Notes under the pieces: model-generated
Told to the model about the DNA's origin: nothing
Database searches by the model: none
Seen by the model: the letters and a program-made list of their open reading frames with translations, nothing else
Translations under genes and position numbers: made by a program
Shown here: piece after piece, positions 1 to 17,396 of the stretch
Position numbering within the stretch: position 1 is the stretch's first letter
How the letters are laid out: each line of letters begins with the position of its first letter
Assembly (NCBI GenBank): GCA_011503125.2
Contig: WWBZ02000073.1
Span: 868,001-932,000, forward strand
Length of the DNA stretch: 64,000 nt
Direction: 5' to 3'
Source: Botryosphaeria dothidea
Taxonomy: Eukaryota; Ascomycota; Dothideomycetes; Botryosphaeriales; Botryosphaeriaceae

Positions 1-3000
1 TTGCGCCACCTGCGGCGAGAACATGCAGGAGTGTCCCGGTCACTTCGGACACATCGAGTTGCATACCCCCGTCTTCCACGCCGGTGAGTAAGCCAGGAAA
101 TGAAATTTGTGAATTTCACTGATTTTTCTGTAGGTTTCATCAACAAAATCAAGAAGCTTCTTGAGTGTGTGTGCCACAATTGTGGCAAGATCTTAGCAGA
201 CGAAGTTAGTCGTCCTTGGGGGATGACGGCCTTTGTTGTTTGCTCGTGCTGACGCGTATTCTAGTCTGAGCAACAGTTCAAGGACGCCCTAAGGTTACGA
301 GACCCGAAGAAGCGCTTCGAAGCCATATGGAAGGTCTGCAAGCCTAAGGCTGTCTGTCAGATGGACCAACCCTCAGACGATTACGATGCCGGAGCTCAGA
401 AGAACAAGAAGCCCCAGATCCAACACGGCGGATGCGGCAACCGCCAACCAGAGCTTCGAAAGGACGGCTTGAAACTCGTTGGAACCTGGAAGCCTCAGAA
501 GGGAGAAGATGAAGAAGAGGCGCGCCAGCCGGAGAAGCGCGTCATCAAGCCCCAGGACGTGCTTAACATTTTCAAATTGATCACCGACGAGTCTCTCGTC
601 ACCCTGGGCTTGAATGTCAACTTCGCCAGGCCTGAGTGGATGGTCATCACCATGCTGCCCGTGCCGCCTCCTCCTGTCAGGCCTAGTATCTCCGTCGACG
701 GTACTGGACAAGGCATGCGCGGTGAGGATGACTTGACCTACAAGCTCGCTGATATCATCCGTGCCAACGCTAGCATCAAGCGCTGTCACACTGAGGGTGC
801 TGCGCAGCACGTCATCGATGACTTCGAGGTGCTTCTCCAGTGGCACGTAGCAACTTACATGGACAATGACCTTGCCGGTCAACCTCAGGCTCAGCAGAAG
901 TCTGGTAGGGCTTTGAAGACTATTCGTGGTCGTTTAAAGGGCAAGGATGGTCGTCTCCGTGGAAACTTGATGGGCAAACGTGTAGATTTCTCCGCACGTA
1001 CTGTCATTACTGGTGATCCCAACCTGGATCTGGACGAAGTCGGTGTTCCGCGATCCATTGCTAGGACTTTGACATATCCCGAGACGGTCACCCCGTACAA
1101 CATTGCGAAGCTCCACGAGCTCGTCAAGAACGGTCCCAACGAGCACCCTGGTGCCAAGTACATCATTCGTGACGATGGCACGCGTATCGACCTTCGTCAC
1201 CACAAGCGCGCCGGCGAAATCCAGCTTGCTTATGGTTGGAAGGTCGAACGTCACATCATCAGCGGAGATTTCATCATTTTCAACCGTCAGCCTTCCCTGC
1301 ACAAGGAATCTATGATGGGTCACCGCGTCCGTGTCATGCCATACTCGACTTTCCGCTTGAACTTGTCGGTCACTTCTCCTTACAACGCCGATTTCGACGG
1401 TGACGAGATGAACTTGCACGTTCCTCAGACAGAAGAAACTCGCGCAGAGGTCATGCAGCTGTGCATGGTCCCATTGAACATTGTGTCGCCGCAACGTAAC
1501 GGTCCGCTTATGGGTATCGTGCAGGATACGCTCTGCGGTATCTACAAAATGTGCCATCGTGATATCTTCCTCACCAAGGAACAAGTGATGAACATTCTTC
1601 TCTGGGTTCCGGACTGGGATGGCGTCATTCCTCAACCCGCTATCCTCAAGCCTCGTCCTCGCTGGACCGGAAAGCAGGTGCTCAGCCTTGCAATTCCCGA
1701 TATCAACCTGATCAAGCCAGGCAAGACCCATGCTCCTATCGACGACAGTGGCGTCGTCATCATTGGCGGCGAGCTCATGTACGGACTTTTCAACAAGAAG
1801 ATTGTTGGTGCAAGCAGTGGTGGTATCATTCACACGATCTACAACGAAAAGGGCTGGGAGTCGGCTGTTGGCTTCTTCAACGGTTCGCAGCGTATCGTCA
1901 ACTATTGGCTATTGCACTACGGCTTCTCTATTGGTATCGGCGACACTATTCCTGATGCCATCACGACCACGAAGATTGAGGGTGCTATCGATGAGCAGAA
2001 GGAAGAGGTCGCAAGAATCACCGACGAAGCGACTCAGGACAAGCTCGACCCACTTCCCGGTATGACCAAGAGAGAAACATTCGAGAGTAAGGTCTCGGTC
2101 TGCCTGAACAAGGCTCGTGATAACGCTGGTGCGGTCACCGAAAAGAGTGTGGCTAAGTGTAACAACGCAATTGCCATGGCTGCTTCCGGTTCGAAGGGTT
2201 CAACTATCAACATTTCCCAGATGACGGCGCTTGTCGGTCAACAATCCGTCGAGGGTAAGCGTATTCCATTCGGTTTCAAGTACCGCACTCTCCCGCATTT
2301 CACGAAGGACGACTATTCGCCTGCAGCCAGAGGATTTGTTCAGAATTCCTACCTCCGTGGTCTCACACCCTCAGAGTTCTTCTTCCACGCCATGGCTGGT
2401 CGGGAGGGTCTCATCGATACCGCTGTCAAGACTGCCGAGACTGGTTACATTCAGCGTCGTTTAGTCAAGGCACTTGAAGACGTCATGGCAAAGTACGACG
2501 GAACTGTCCGCAACTCTCTTGGTGACGTTGTTCAGTTCGTTTACGGTGAGGATGGCCTCGACGGTTGCTTCATCGAGAAACAGACTTGCGACTTCGTCAA
2601 CTGTTCCGACACGCAATTCAAGCGCAAGTTCTACGTGAACGTTATGGACCCTGCAACTTCCTTGTCAAGCGACATTCTCGAGCAGGCAGATGCTATTGCC
2701 GGCGACATTGAAGTGCAACGCTTATTTGACGAGGAATTCACTCAGCTTGAAGAGGACAGGGCTTATGTCCGTAATCTTACCAACGACGCAGACGATCAGC
2801 GCCAGCTACCTCTGAACATCCAGCGGATCATCGAAACCGCGAAAAGCAAGTTCCGTATCAAGGACGGCACCAGGAGCGACCTGCACCCTTCAGAAGTCAT
2901 TCCCAAGGTTCGCGAGGTGCTCGACAGGCTTGTTGTCGTTCGCGGTAATGATCCTTTGTCAACCGAGGCGCAAGAGAACGCCACATTCCTCTTCAAGTCG

Positions 3001-5166
3001 CAACTGCGATCGAGGCTGGCATTCAAGCGTCTTGTGCGCGAGTACTCACTGAACAAGCTTGCGTTCGAGAACGTGCTTGGTGACCTCGAGAACCGTTTCA
3101 ACAGAGCGATCGTCAGTCCTGGAGAGATGGTTGGTGTGCTTGCCGCGCAATCGATTGGTGAGCCTGCCACACAGATGACACTGAACACCTTCCACTTTGC
3201 TGGTGTGTCCTCGAAGAACGTCACGCTCGGTGTCCCACGTCTCAAGGAAATTCTCAACGTTGCAAAGAACATCAAGACTCCTTCTATGAAGGTTTACACC
3301 ACCACGCCCTTGGAGACTCACGATGAGAAGAAGAGAACTGAAGCCAAGCTGCTTCGTAGCCGTATTGAGCACACCACTCTGCGCTCTGTCACTGAGTGCG
3401 TCGAGCTATACTATGATCCTGACATTCAGTCGACTGTCATTGAGGCAGATGCCGACTTGGTTGAGTCGTACTTCATCATCCCTGACGACACTCAAGAAGA
3501 TATCGACTCCCAGTCCAAGTGGCTCATGCGTATCGTGCTCAACCGTGGCAGACTTCTTGATAAGGGCCTCACTGTACCCCAGGTCGCTACTAGGATCAAG
3601 GAGGAGTATCACAAGAACTTGGCAGTCATTTTCAGCGACAACAATGCTGAGGAGCTTGTCATCCGTATTCGCTTGATCAAGCACGACGCGGGCAAGGACG
3701 AGGAAGGTGAAGAGAACGATGAAAAATTGCTTGGCATGCTGGAGGAAAGGCTGCTCGACGACTTGACCCTGCGCGGTGTTCCAGGTGTTGAGCGTGCCTT
3801 CATCAACAGCGGTCAGAAGCAGGTCGTTCGGGATGACGGCACCCTTTACATGGCCAAGAGTGATGAGTGCACTGAGTGGTTCCTTGACACCACCGGTACC
3901 GCTCTGGCCCGTGTCTTGACCGTTGATGGAGTTGACGCAAGCCGTACCTACTCTAACAACTTCTTCGAGATTATCCAGGTGTTCGGTATCGAGGCTACCC
4001 GTACGGCCCTCCTCAAGGAGTTCACTCAGGTGTTGGCCTTCGACGGTTCCTACGTCAACCACCGTCATTTGGCACTTCTTGTCGATGTCATGACAGCTCG
4101 TGGCATGATCATGGCAGTTACTCGTCACGGTATCAACCGTGCTGATACGGGTGCTCTCATGCGTTGCTCTTTCGAAGAGACGGTCGAGATTCTCCTGGAC
4201 GCTGCTGCCTGCGGTGAGCTGGACGACTGCCGTGGTGTTTCCGAGAACGTCATGCTTGGTCAACTGGCACCCGCCGGTACGGGCGAGATGGACATCATGG
4301 TCGACAAGAATATGCTCAACACCTGCGCATCGGACAACGCCCGTTACGGCCTCATGCCCGGTCTGGCTGCTGCACCTGGCTACATCGCTGATGGCGCTGC
4401 CACACCCTACGACATTGGCTCCCCAAGTCACGAGGGTGCCTTCGCCGGCCCGGACTATGGCGCATCGTTCTCGCCCATGGTGCAGGCTGGTGGCGATGAC
4501 AGCGGTGGCTTCACGTCATATGGCTCATTCAGCGACGGCGGCATGAGCCCCTACGCCGGACGCAGTCCTGGCTATGCGCCAACGAGCCCCTTCAGTGGCC
4601 AGAGCCCGACGTCACCGGGTTATTCGCCAACCAGCCCTGGATACTCGCCCACGTCGCCAGGCCTCAATCTCACGAGCCCGCGGTTCGGTGGCACCTCGCC
4701 AGCTTTTTCGCCTACCTCACCAGGGTACTCACCTACCAGCCCCGGCTATTCACCTACCAGCCCAGGCTATTCGCCGACATCACCAGCGTACAACTCGTTG
4801 TCACCAACAAGCCCCTCGTACAGCCCAACTTCTCCCTCGTATTCGCCAACGTCTCCATCTTCACCGACCTCCCCGGCGTACATGCAACGTTCGGCCTATT
4901 CACCAACTTCACCTTCGTACAGCCCAACGTCGCCGAAGTACAGCCCGACAAGCCCTGCGTATTCGCCAACAAGCCCACAGTACTCGCCGACGAGCCCACA
5001 ATTTGGTGGAGGCAGCGACAGGCGATCGCCAACATCCCCTGCTGTGGGTTACTCTCCCACAAGCCCGGTCTACAGTCCGACCAGCCCTGGCAGCCCGGCT
5101 TATCCTCCTACTTCTCCGGGCTCTGGGCAGTACTCTGCTACGTCCCCGAAGTACTCACCTACGTAA
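1..5166 (+). CDS. RPB1: RNA polymerase II largest subunit, 5' end cut off by the window
   Basis: This is the catalytic subunit of nuclear RNA polymerase II. The visible exons are <2..83, 134..204 and 265..5166, with introns of 50 and 60 nt. The window opens inside the N-terminal zinc clamp ([20 protein letters not shown]). The Mg-binding loop [15 protein letters not shown] is encoded near 1384-1428. The bridge helix ([19 protein letters not shown]) is near 2389-2445 and the trigger loop ([19 protein letters not shown]) near 3148-3204. From about 4560 to the stop lies the CTD, with 14 exact YSPTSP hexamers separated by irregular heptads. The protein as written ends ...KYSPT. The stop codon TAA lies inside a perfect GTAAGT donor (5163-5168), so an alternative C-terminus is possible. 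Only the first part of the gene is missing. Confidence 0.98.
4560..5163 (+). repeat. CTD heptad-repeat coding region of RPB1
   Basis: Tandem 21-nt units encode YSPTSP-x heptads, the phosphorylation platform for capping, splicing and 3'-end factors. Fourteen exact YSPTSP blocks are seen. They are interrupted by non-consensus segments ([39 protein letters not shown]), a pattern expected for a filamentous fungus rather than for yeast. Confidence 0.95.
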
Positions 5167-16415: not shown

Positions 16416-17114
16416 ATGCCGACACCCGAACTCTTGTACGTGGGCTCGGCAATCAAGGACCCAGTCCTTACAGAAGACGCCTTTGTCAAATGGTACGATG
16501 AAGTCCATATTCCCGACGTCCTCGCCAGCGGTCCGCTGTTCGCCTTGCGCTACAAGAACACCAATCCGTCCGCGGCCTTCCCTCACCTCGTGCTCTATAC
16601 GGTCGAACCGGGGTACCTCGAGTCGGACACATTCAAAAACGCCAAGATGTCGCACGACACTCTTCCTGGCGGCCGGTCGCACTTCGAGCTGATCAACTTC
16701 GACGCCCGGGTCTACGAGAAGATCCAGACGTTCGAAGGCCAGATTCCGAAAGAGGGGCGCGCCGCGAAGTGCCTCATAGCCGTAGCTATGGAGCCGGCAG
16801 AGGGCGAGGAGGCAGACAAGGACTTTGATGCTTGGTACAGGCTGCAACACTTGGACATGCTGAGCACCGTCACCGGATATCGCCGGTCAACCAGATATAA
16901 GCTCAAGTTTTCGCCGAACCCCGAGGCTGCGGGGAAGAAGCTCCCGCGCTATCTGGCACTGCATGAGTACGACAAAACGGATATACCCCAGGAGCAGATA
17001 AAGCTGGCGGTTGGAACAGAATGGAGTAAGAAGGTAATCGGAGGAGCGAAGGCCTTCGTCAGGGACGTTTATGTTTTCCAGCATGAGGCTGGTGATCCAG
17101 AGGTCAAGTTGTAG
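16416..17114 (+). CDS. EthD/ABM-like protein with two tandem dimeric alpha/beta-barrel modules
   Basis: An intronless gene of 232 residues. The ATG at 16416 (MPTPELLYVG) is used; the frame upstream has only a GTG. Each half repeats the pattern F-x-x-W-Y-x-x-x-H (F23...H31 and F137...H145), followed by a leucine-containing helix and an RYK strand. This is characteristic of the EthD/antibiotic-monooxygenase ferredoxin-like fold. One chain therefore seems to carry both halves of a normally dimeric barrel. Such proteins are common in filamentous fungi; some take part in oxidation or decarboxylation of aromatic polyketides, but no substrate can be named here. No signal peptide is seen. Confidence 0.75.
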   Translation: MPTPELLYVGSAIKDPVLTEDAFVKWYDEVHIPDVLASGPLFALRYKNTNPSAAFPHLVLYTVEPGYLESDTFKNAKMSHDTLPGGRSHFELINFDARVYEKIQTFEGQIPKEGRAAKCLIAVAMEPAEGEEADKDFDAWYRLQHLDMLSTVTGYRRSTRYKLKFSPNPEAAGKKLPRYLALHEYDKTDIPQEQIKLAVGTEWSKKVIGGAKAFVRDVYVFQHEAGDPEVKL

Positions 17115-17219
17115 GTTCTTGATCACAACGCTCGGCAGTCCATGATTGCCATCGATGGTATAGAAACCTTTTCTGCGAGCTCGTACTCCATCAAACAGCA
17201 TGGGTCTGTGGTTTAGTGG

Positions 17220-17274
17220 GTAGGTCTTCTTTGACACCGATTCGTCACCGAAAATAAAACTAATGAACTCGTAG
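17220..17274 (+). other. 55-nt mRNA-type intron-like insertion in the tRNA D loop
   Basis: It begins GTAGGT, ends TAG and contains CTAAT at 17260-17264, about 10 nt before the end. These are the signals seen in the protein-gene introns of this window, and the length is typical. Removal exactly at GT...AG gives a canonical D loop; any 51-nt removal using the flanking GTAG repeats leaves the loop four nucleotides too long. Eukaryotic nuclear tRNA introns normally lie only between 37 and 38. Confidence 0.75.
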
Positions 17275-17292
17275 TATAATACTCCCTTAGCA

Positions 17293-17320
17293 TTACCATC
17301 ACGTCAAAGTGATATCTGTC
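17293..17320 (+). other. Canonical-position tRNA intron
   Basis: 28 nt inserted after A37. It contains the hairpin ATCAC-gtcaaa-GTGAT (17298-17313). Position and size fit removal by the tRNA splicing endonuclease. Confidence 0.8.
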
Positions 17321-17390
17321 TGGGAGTGGTCCCGGGTTCGATTCCCGGCGGATCCATTCTAGCTGGTTAGACTCCAGTGTGTTCCCTTCC

Positions 17391-17396
17391 TTTTTT
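17391..17396 (+). terminator. Pol III terminator candidate
   Basis: A run of six T 34 nt after the tRNA 3' end is a normal RNA polymerase III stop signal. Confidence 0.65.

Follow-up and report, generated by a model that had tools for sequence, protein, structure and literature searches.

In Botryosphaeria dothidea, the tRNA-Ala(AGC) genes form a family in which every copy that we found is interrupted, both by a short insert with mRNA-type splice signals in the D loop and by an intron at position 37/38 of the kind cut by the tRNA endonuclease. Judged from the sequences, it is highly probable that this is a functional tRNA-Ala(AGC) family whose precursor is processed by the spliceosome as well as by the tRNA endonuclease.

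The interrupted tRNA-Ala(AGC) gene

The window, a 64,000-nucleotide stretch of contig C69, carries one such gene (Table 1). A sequence-only reading had described it as an intact alanine tRNA (G3:U70, A73, AGC anticodon, A and B boxes) interrupted after G19 by 55 nt with GTAGGT, CTAAT and TAG, and again after nucleotide 37 by 28 nt. All of this was borne out, and the junctions it had drawn (17219/17275 and 17292/17321) are exact to the base: G3:U70, A73 and the AGC anticodon are all present, the Rfam tRNA model (RF00005) gives the unspliced locus 35.5 bits (gathering score 29), and ARAGORN, with the D-loop insert removed, reports a tRNA-Ala(agc) with a 28-nt intron in the anticodon loop. With the insert kept and introns allowed, the same program wrongly calls Val(cac), and at default settings it finds no tRNA in the window or in the six paralogous loci. 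In the mature form 20 of 21 stem pairs are made. D-stem pair 13:22 is a U-U, a point against a functional gene. Going by sequence features, a box A, a box B and a T run equip the locus as a Pol III gene, with intron 1 placed straight after an intact box A. Folding the precursor with its introns in place told us little (z −1.32). Letters related to the trailer hairpin at 17363–17377 also trail the tRNA in the other Ala loci.

Table 1. Parts of the tRNA-Ala(AGC) locus, in window positions
Feature	Position	Strand	Basis or remark
tRNA-Ala(AGC) gene, two inserts	17202–17356	+	ARAGORN after removal of the D-loop insert; Rfam tRNA
Exon 1, nucleotides 1–19 (18 bases)	17202–17219	+	same letters in 7/7 loci
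Box A, ending at G19	17209–17219	+	within exon 1
Intron 1, 55 nt, mRNA-type: GTAGGT, CTAAT (branch A 11 nt before the end), TAG	17220–17274	+	
Exon 2, nucleotides 20–37, with anticodon AGC	17275–17292	+	same letters in 7/7 loci
Intron 2 at 37/38: canonical tRNA-endonuclease intron of 28 nt	17293–17320	+	helix and A-I pair
Exon 3, nucleotides 38–73	17321–17356	+	
Box B GGTTCGATTCC	17335–17345	+	within exon 3
Trailer hairpin CTGG-TTAGACT-CCAG, 15 nt, box-B-like	17363–17377	+	lies after the tRNA 3' end, before the terminator
T run, probable Pol III terminator	17391–17396	+	

Elsewhere in the window, 265–5166 encodes RPB1, the largest subunit of RNA polymerase II (Pfam), and 46012–46300 matches Rfam 5_ureB_sRNA at 100 bits, antisense to a fungal urease gene; that match probably reflects conservation of the urease coding sequence rather than an sRNA.

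A family of loci with two or three introns

How widespread is this architecture? Locus and exon-pattern searches of the 51.7-Mb assembly (78 contigs) returned seven loci with both inserts: the window, C1, C58, C36, C78, C12 and C3. The C3 and C12 loci are identical across 8,487 bases and were therefore counted as one, leaving six distinct loci; among the remaining 8.5-kb stretches, any two share at most about 410 bases. L036/L038, L053/L055 and L062/L063 are further cases of one tRNA gene and its flanks present on two contigs, and these pairs, like C3/C12, represent either segmental duplication or assembly redundancy. With the D-loop insert in six distinct loci, the assembly artefact that the sequence-only reading had considered is not what we find.

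The mature 72 nt are the same in all seven loci except at nucleotides 50 and 64 (49 and 63 in linear numbering), where a C-G pair in three loci is a G-C pair in the four that carry a third intron: a compensatory swap, and one that spans intron 3. Intron 1, after G19, measures 53–60 nt across the loci, and intron 2, at 37/38, 21–42 nt. ARAGORN recognizes Ala(agc) in 7/7 loci with all introns out and in 0/7 with all introns in; when intron 2 alone is retained, it does so in 4/7, calling C36 Met and both C12 and C3 Phe. Rfam, run on the six other unspliced loci, gave only sub-threshold tmRNA-like matches, in three of them. A run of four or more Ts follows 33–43 nt downstream in all six distinct Ala loci; of 40 further distinct nuclear tRNA loci inspected for comparison, 39 have one within 50 nt. 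The upstream WCAAM motif (5/6 distinct Ala loci) says little, since just 16 of the 40 other loci have it. Overall, the sequences of the tRNA-Ala(AGC) exons look selected.

The two shared introns differ in kind. Intron 1 begins with GT[AT][AG]GT, contains CTAAY with its A 10–13 nt before the end, and closes with YAG in 6/6 distinct loci, in each case at the junctions whose joining re-forms the tRNA. For each distinct locus, the window included, none of 200,000 shuffles held all three signals jointly; the product of the three separate shuffle frequencies is 2.7e-7 to 6.6e-7 per locus, values that are not independent of one another because the loci are related. In intron 2, by contrast, the 5' splice motif and YAG occur in 0/6 distinct loci and CTAAY in 2/6, whereas the outer (anticodon-stem) helix with 4/4 pairs and the A-I pair are present in all six. 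Between the signals, intron 1 has diverged: Its interiors are 45–70% identical between distinct loci versus 48–52% in shuffles, a comparison that left the branch motif in. They are not entirely down at shuffle level, with z at or below 1.0 in five of the 15 pairs, 2.1–2.8 in six and above 3 in four (at most 6.7, for the window and C1). From this pattern we infer that intron 1 is probably removed by the spliceosome. For comparison, one mRNA intron of the urease gene and one of a second gene in the window are similar in size (47 and 49 nt) and differ from intron 1 in their 5' site and branch letters, having GTATGC or GTATGT, CTGAC and CAG. The comparison covers these two introns; another pair of mRNA-intron anchors yielded no junction.

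C36, C78, C12 and C3 have a third insert, of 52–53 nt, which follows TTCG in the T loop (57/58) and whose removal yields a complete T arm. It reads GTTAGT...(C/T)TAAT...AG, with GTTAGT in all three distinct three-intron loci; it closes with TAG in C78 and with AAG, a weak 3' site, in the other two of the three (C36 and C12). Intron 3 splits box B in these loci. It carries the box-B-like GTTCGAATC (GTTCGAATT in C78), and the trailer of the same loci has GGTTCAATTCC; as a guess, these elements might substitute for the split box B. Identity among the three distinct loci is 79–98% for intron 3, against 45–61% for introns 1 and 46–64% for introns 2. Intron 3 lies on a 3' module of ~300 bp found in C36, C78, C12 and C3 only. 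Downstream stands the 3' half of an older tRNA, its last 31 nt intact in C36 and decayed in C78, with its box B segment 210 nt (C36) and 234 nt (C78) behind the new tRNA end; none is recognizable in C12. The similarity of intron 3, the restriction of the module to four loci and the older 3' halves argue that the module was probably inserted into Ala genes that were already dispersed, or copied between them.

Are there uninterrupted copies as well? None was found in the genome with exon patterns, box B patterns or the Rfam list. The exon-1 and exon-2 patterns (up to three mismatches), which a copy devoid of intron 1 would match, each returned the seven loci plus one non-tRNA site; near-miss sites at C58:1899792 and C36:4342569 were rejected as tRNA genes on reading. 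Anticodon patterns, TTAGCA or TAGCA followed by the box B GGTTCRAWYC at spacings that range from the intronless one to a gap of 73 nt, had 0, 4 and 10 matches. Three of these are the Ala genes of C1, C58 and the window; the 11 remaining matches were Asp, Glu (two identical loci, the second assigned via its identity to the first), Gly, His or non-tRNA by reading or ARAGORN. The three-intron loci escape these patterns because intron 3 splits their box B, and GGTTCRAWYC is one form of a box for which other tRNAs of this genome use further variants. From the Rfam list, ARAGORN called 46 of 47 fetched loci, none of the 46 as Ala-AGC; the underlying RF00005 search scored 63 of 1497 candidates and is thus no full tRNA census. 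Listing the tRNA-Ala(AGC) genes, a check proposed by the sequence-only reading, hence gave seven loci, all interrupted, and the many intact genes that it had named as evidence against itself did not appear in the searches made.

Outside the family, a general pattern of box A followed by GTRRGT matched nine sites in the genome, six of them Ala loci and three non-tRNA on reading (seven sites for the reversed control pattern); C78 was missed because its intron 1 begins GTTAGT. The exact exon-2 pattern had no match in viral contigs and matched two bacterial contigs among genome contigs, neither a tRNA by ARAGORN; exon 1 plus 5' site matched four times in viral contigs, none with CTAAY or box B behind. 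A search for box B plus TTTTGC returned 29 rows, from which 16 sites were fetched; ARAGORN called a tRNA at 12 and none at four, and the 12 are interrupted in the anticodon loop only (L113 doubtful).

A tRNA-His(GTG) gene on the minus strand of C58 (about 1226400–1226600; L103/L108) has a 57-nt insert between nucleotides 8 and 9 whose motifs, GTAAGT...CTAAC...AAG, are mRNA-type, and at 37/38 an intron of 23 nt. The gene is recognized as His by ARAGORN only once the 8/9 insert is removed, and a search at up to three mismatches found a single copy. Another His gene, at C58:1171k, is without the 8/9 insert. Between these two genes, 10 of 71 positions differ, with three double compensatory changes, of which pair 5:68 spans the 8/9 site and pair 28:42 spans 37/38.

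Proposed dual processing and its alternatives

We favor a precursor processed by both machineries, as the sequence-only reading had suggested, because one architecture is common to all seven loci, whose exons vary in nothing but a compensatory swap; because their introns, though strongly diverged, preserve the splice signals; and because the searches brought up no uninterrupted copy. Pol III would produce this precursor, containing two or three introns; the spliceosome would remove the short GU-AG intron of the D loop and, in four loci, that of the T loop, while the tRNA splicing endonuclease and a ligase would take out the 37/38 intron. We infer the order of these steps, as we do the dependence of GCU/GCC decoding on them. 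Several points count against this model: As far as is known, Pol III RNAs go without the cap and the CTD that aid mRNA splicing; exon 1 offers just 18 nt plus leader; the U6 gene has no insert; the two mRNA introns compared differ from intron 1 in their letters; intron 3 has a weak 3' site in two of three distinct loci; the interiors of intron 1 stay partly above shuffle level; and neither ARAGORN with intron 2 retained nor Rfam on the unspliced loci recognizes the tRNA in every locus.

Could the endonuclease do all the work? The inserts in the D and T loops might be atypical tRNA-endonuclease introns as in Cyanidioschyzon merolae, their GT...AG ends incidental, and with the register shifted by one, intron 1 indeed forms three of the four central pairs of a bulge-helix-bulge (BHB) in 2/6 loci, as does the 8/9 insert of the His gene. 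Yet a BHB calls for a central helix of 4 bp, flanked at the splice sites by two 3-nt bulges, and for intron 1 the full helix (4/4 pairs) is found in 0/6 distinct loci in either register; what the loci have in common is splice motifs and not a helix. Within these genes, the introns at 37/38 do have their outer helix and A-I pair in 6/6. We therefore regard this explanation as unlikely. Still less credence goes to the loci being tRNA-derived repeats or pseudogenes with an intron-like insertion, the functional Ala-AGC genes having been missed or being absent from the assembly. Seven dispersed loci, four of them with a common 3' module and two with remnants of an older half, would suit such elements; their exons, however, have not followed the divergence of introns and flanks, the sole exon change being compensatory, and the searches made brought up no further Ala-AGC gene. 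For the same reasons—all seven loci alike and no uninterrupted copy found—the other option of the sequence-only reading, a copy hit by an intron-like insertion, is disfavored.

Least probable, and only slightly below the pseudogene account in our estimate, is excision of the tRNA from a spliced Pol II transcript. In the window an ORF on the same strand stops at 17114, 87 nt before the tRNA start; its protein is 97% identical to one database record and 84% to Macrophomina phaseolina MPH_04309, with further named matches from Neofusicoccum, Lasiodiplodia and Diplodia; by these matches the host would probably belong to Botryosphaeriaceae. Against a Pol II origin stand the whole box A and the downstream T runs in all six distinct loci.

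Known systems and implications

What would a dually processed tRNA precursor resemble? Intron 2 is like nuclear 37/38 introns of the TSEN/SEN type in position, size and A-I pair, whereas introns 1 and 3 interrupt the tRNA at other positions and have GT...CTAAY...AG, and intron 1 is without a BHB central helix. The closest precedent that we met is C. merolae with its BHB motifs (PMC9602550): Its multi-intron tRNA genes are interrupted at 12/13, 37/38 and 53/54 with hBHBh' motifs (PMC9602550, PMC4090602), as opposed to 19/20, 37/38 and 57/58 with splice-site motifs in the fungal Ala genes. Among the papers listed in literature searches, titles and abstract openings describe no spliceosomal tRNA intron, and the reviews consulted treat eukaryotic tRNA introns as endonuclease-processed.

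Introns of the mRNA type are known in fungal U6 snRNA genes, likewise as GU-AG introns in a Pol III gene. The Ala case differs in that it concerns a tRNA, involves several loci and adds a tRNA-endonuclease intron, whereas the U6 of this genome is a full-length match with no insert.

To our knowledge, decoding of GCU/GCC in eukaryotes needs an AGC tRNA, and these Ala genes should therefore be functional. That every copy found is interrupted suggests, from sequence, an essential tRNA relying on the spliceosome. A wider evolutionary picture seems reasonably probable to us: GCU/GCC decoding would be spliceosome-dependent, with all Ala-AGC genes carrying a D-loop intron behind box A; some loci would have gained a second spliceosomal intron that splits box B and brings a box-B-like replacement, and a His gene one at 8/9, pointing to repeated intron gain in Pol III tRNA genes within limits set by the internal promoter.

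Why might such genes stay unnoticed? For tRNAscan-SE 2.0, the step that looks for non-canonical introns is described for candidates from archaea (PMC8450103), which could be one explanation. Splicing of tRNA and of mRNA are described as separate systems, and a tRNA needing both would connect them. If true, the spliceosome of this fungus acts on tRNA precursors, and translation is linked to spliceosome activity.
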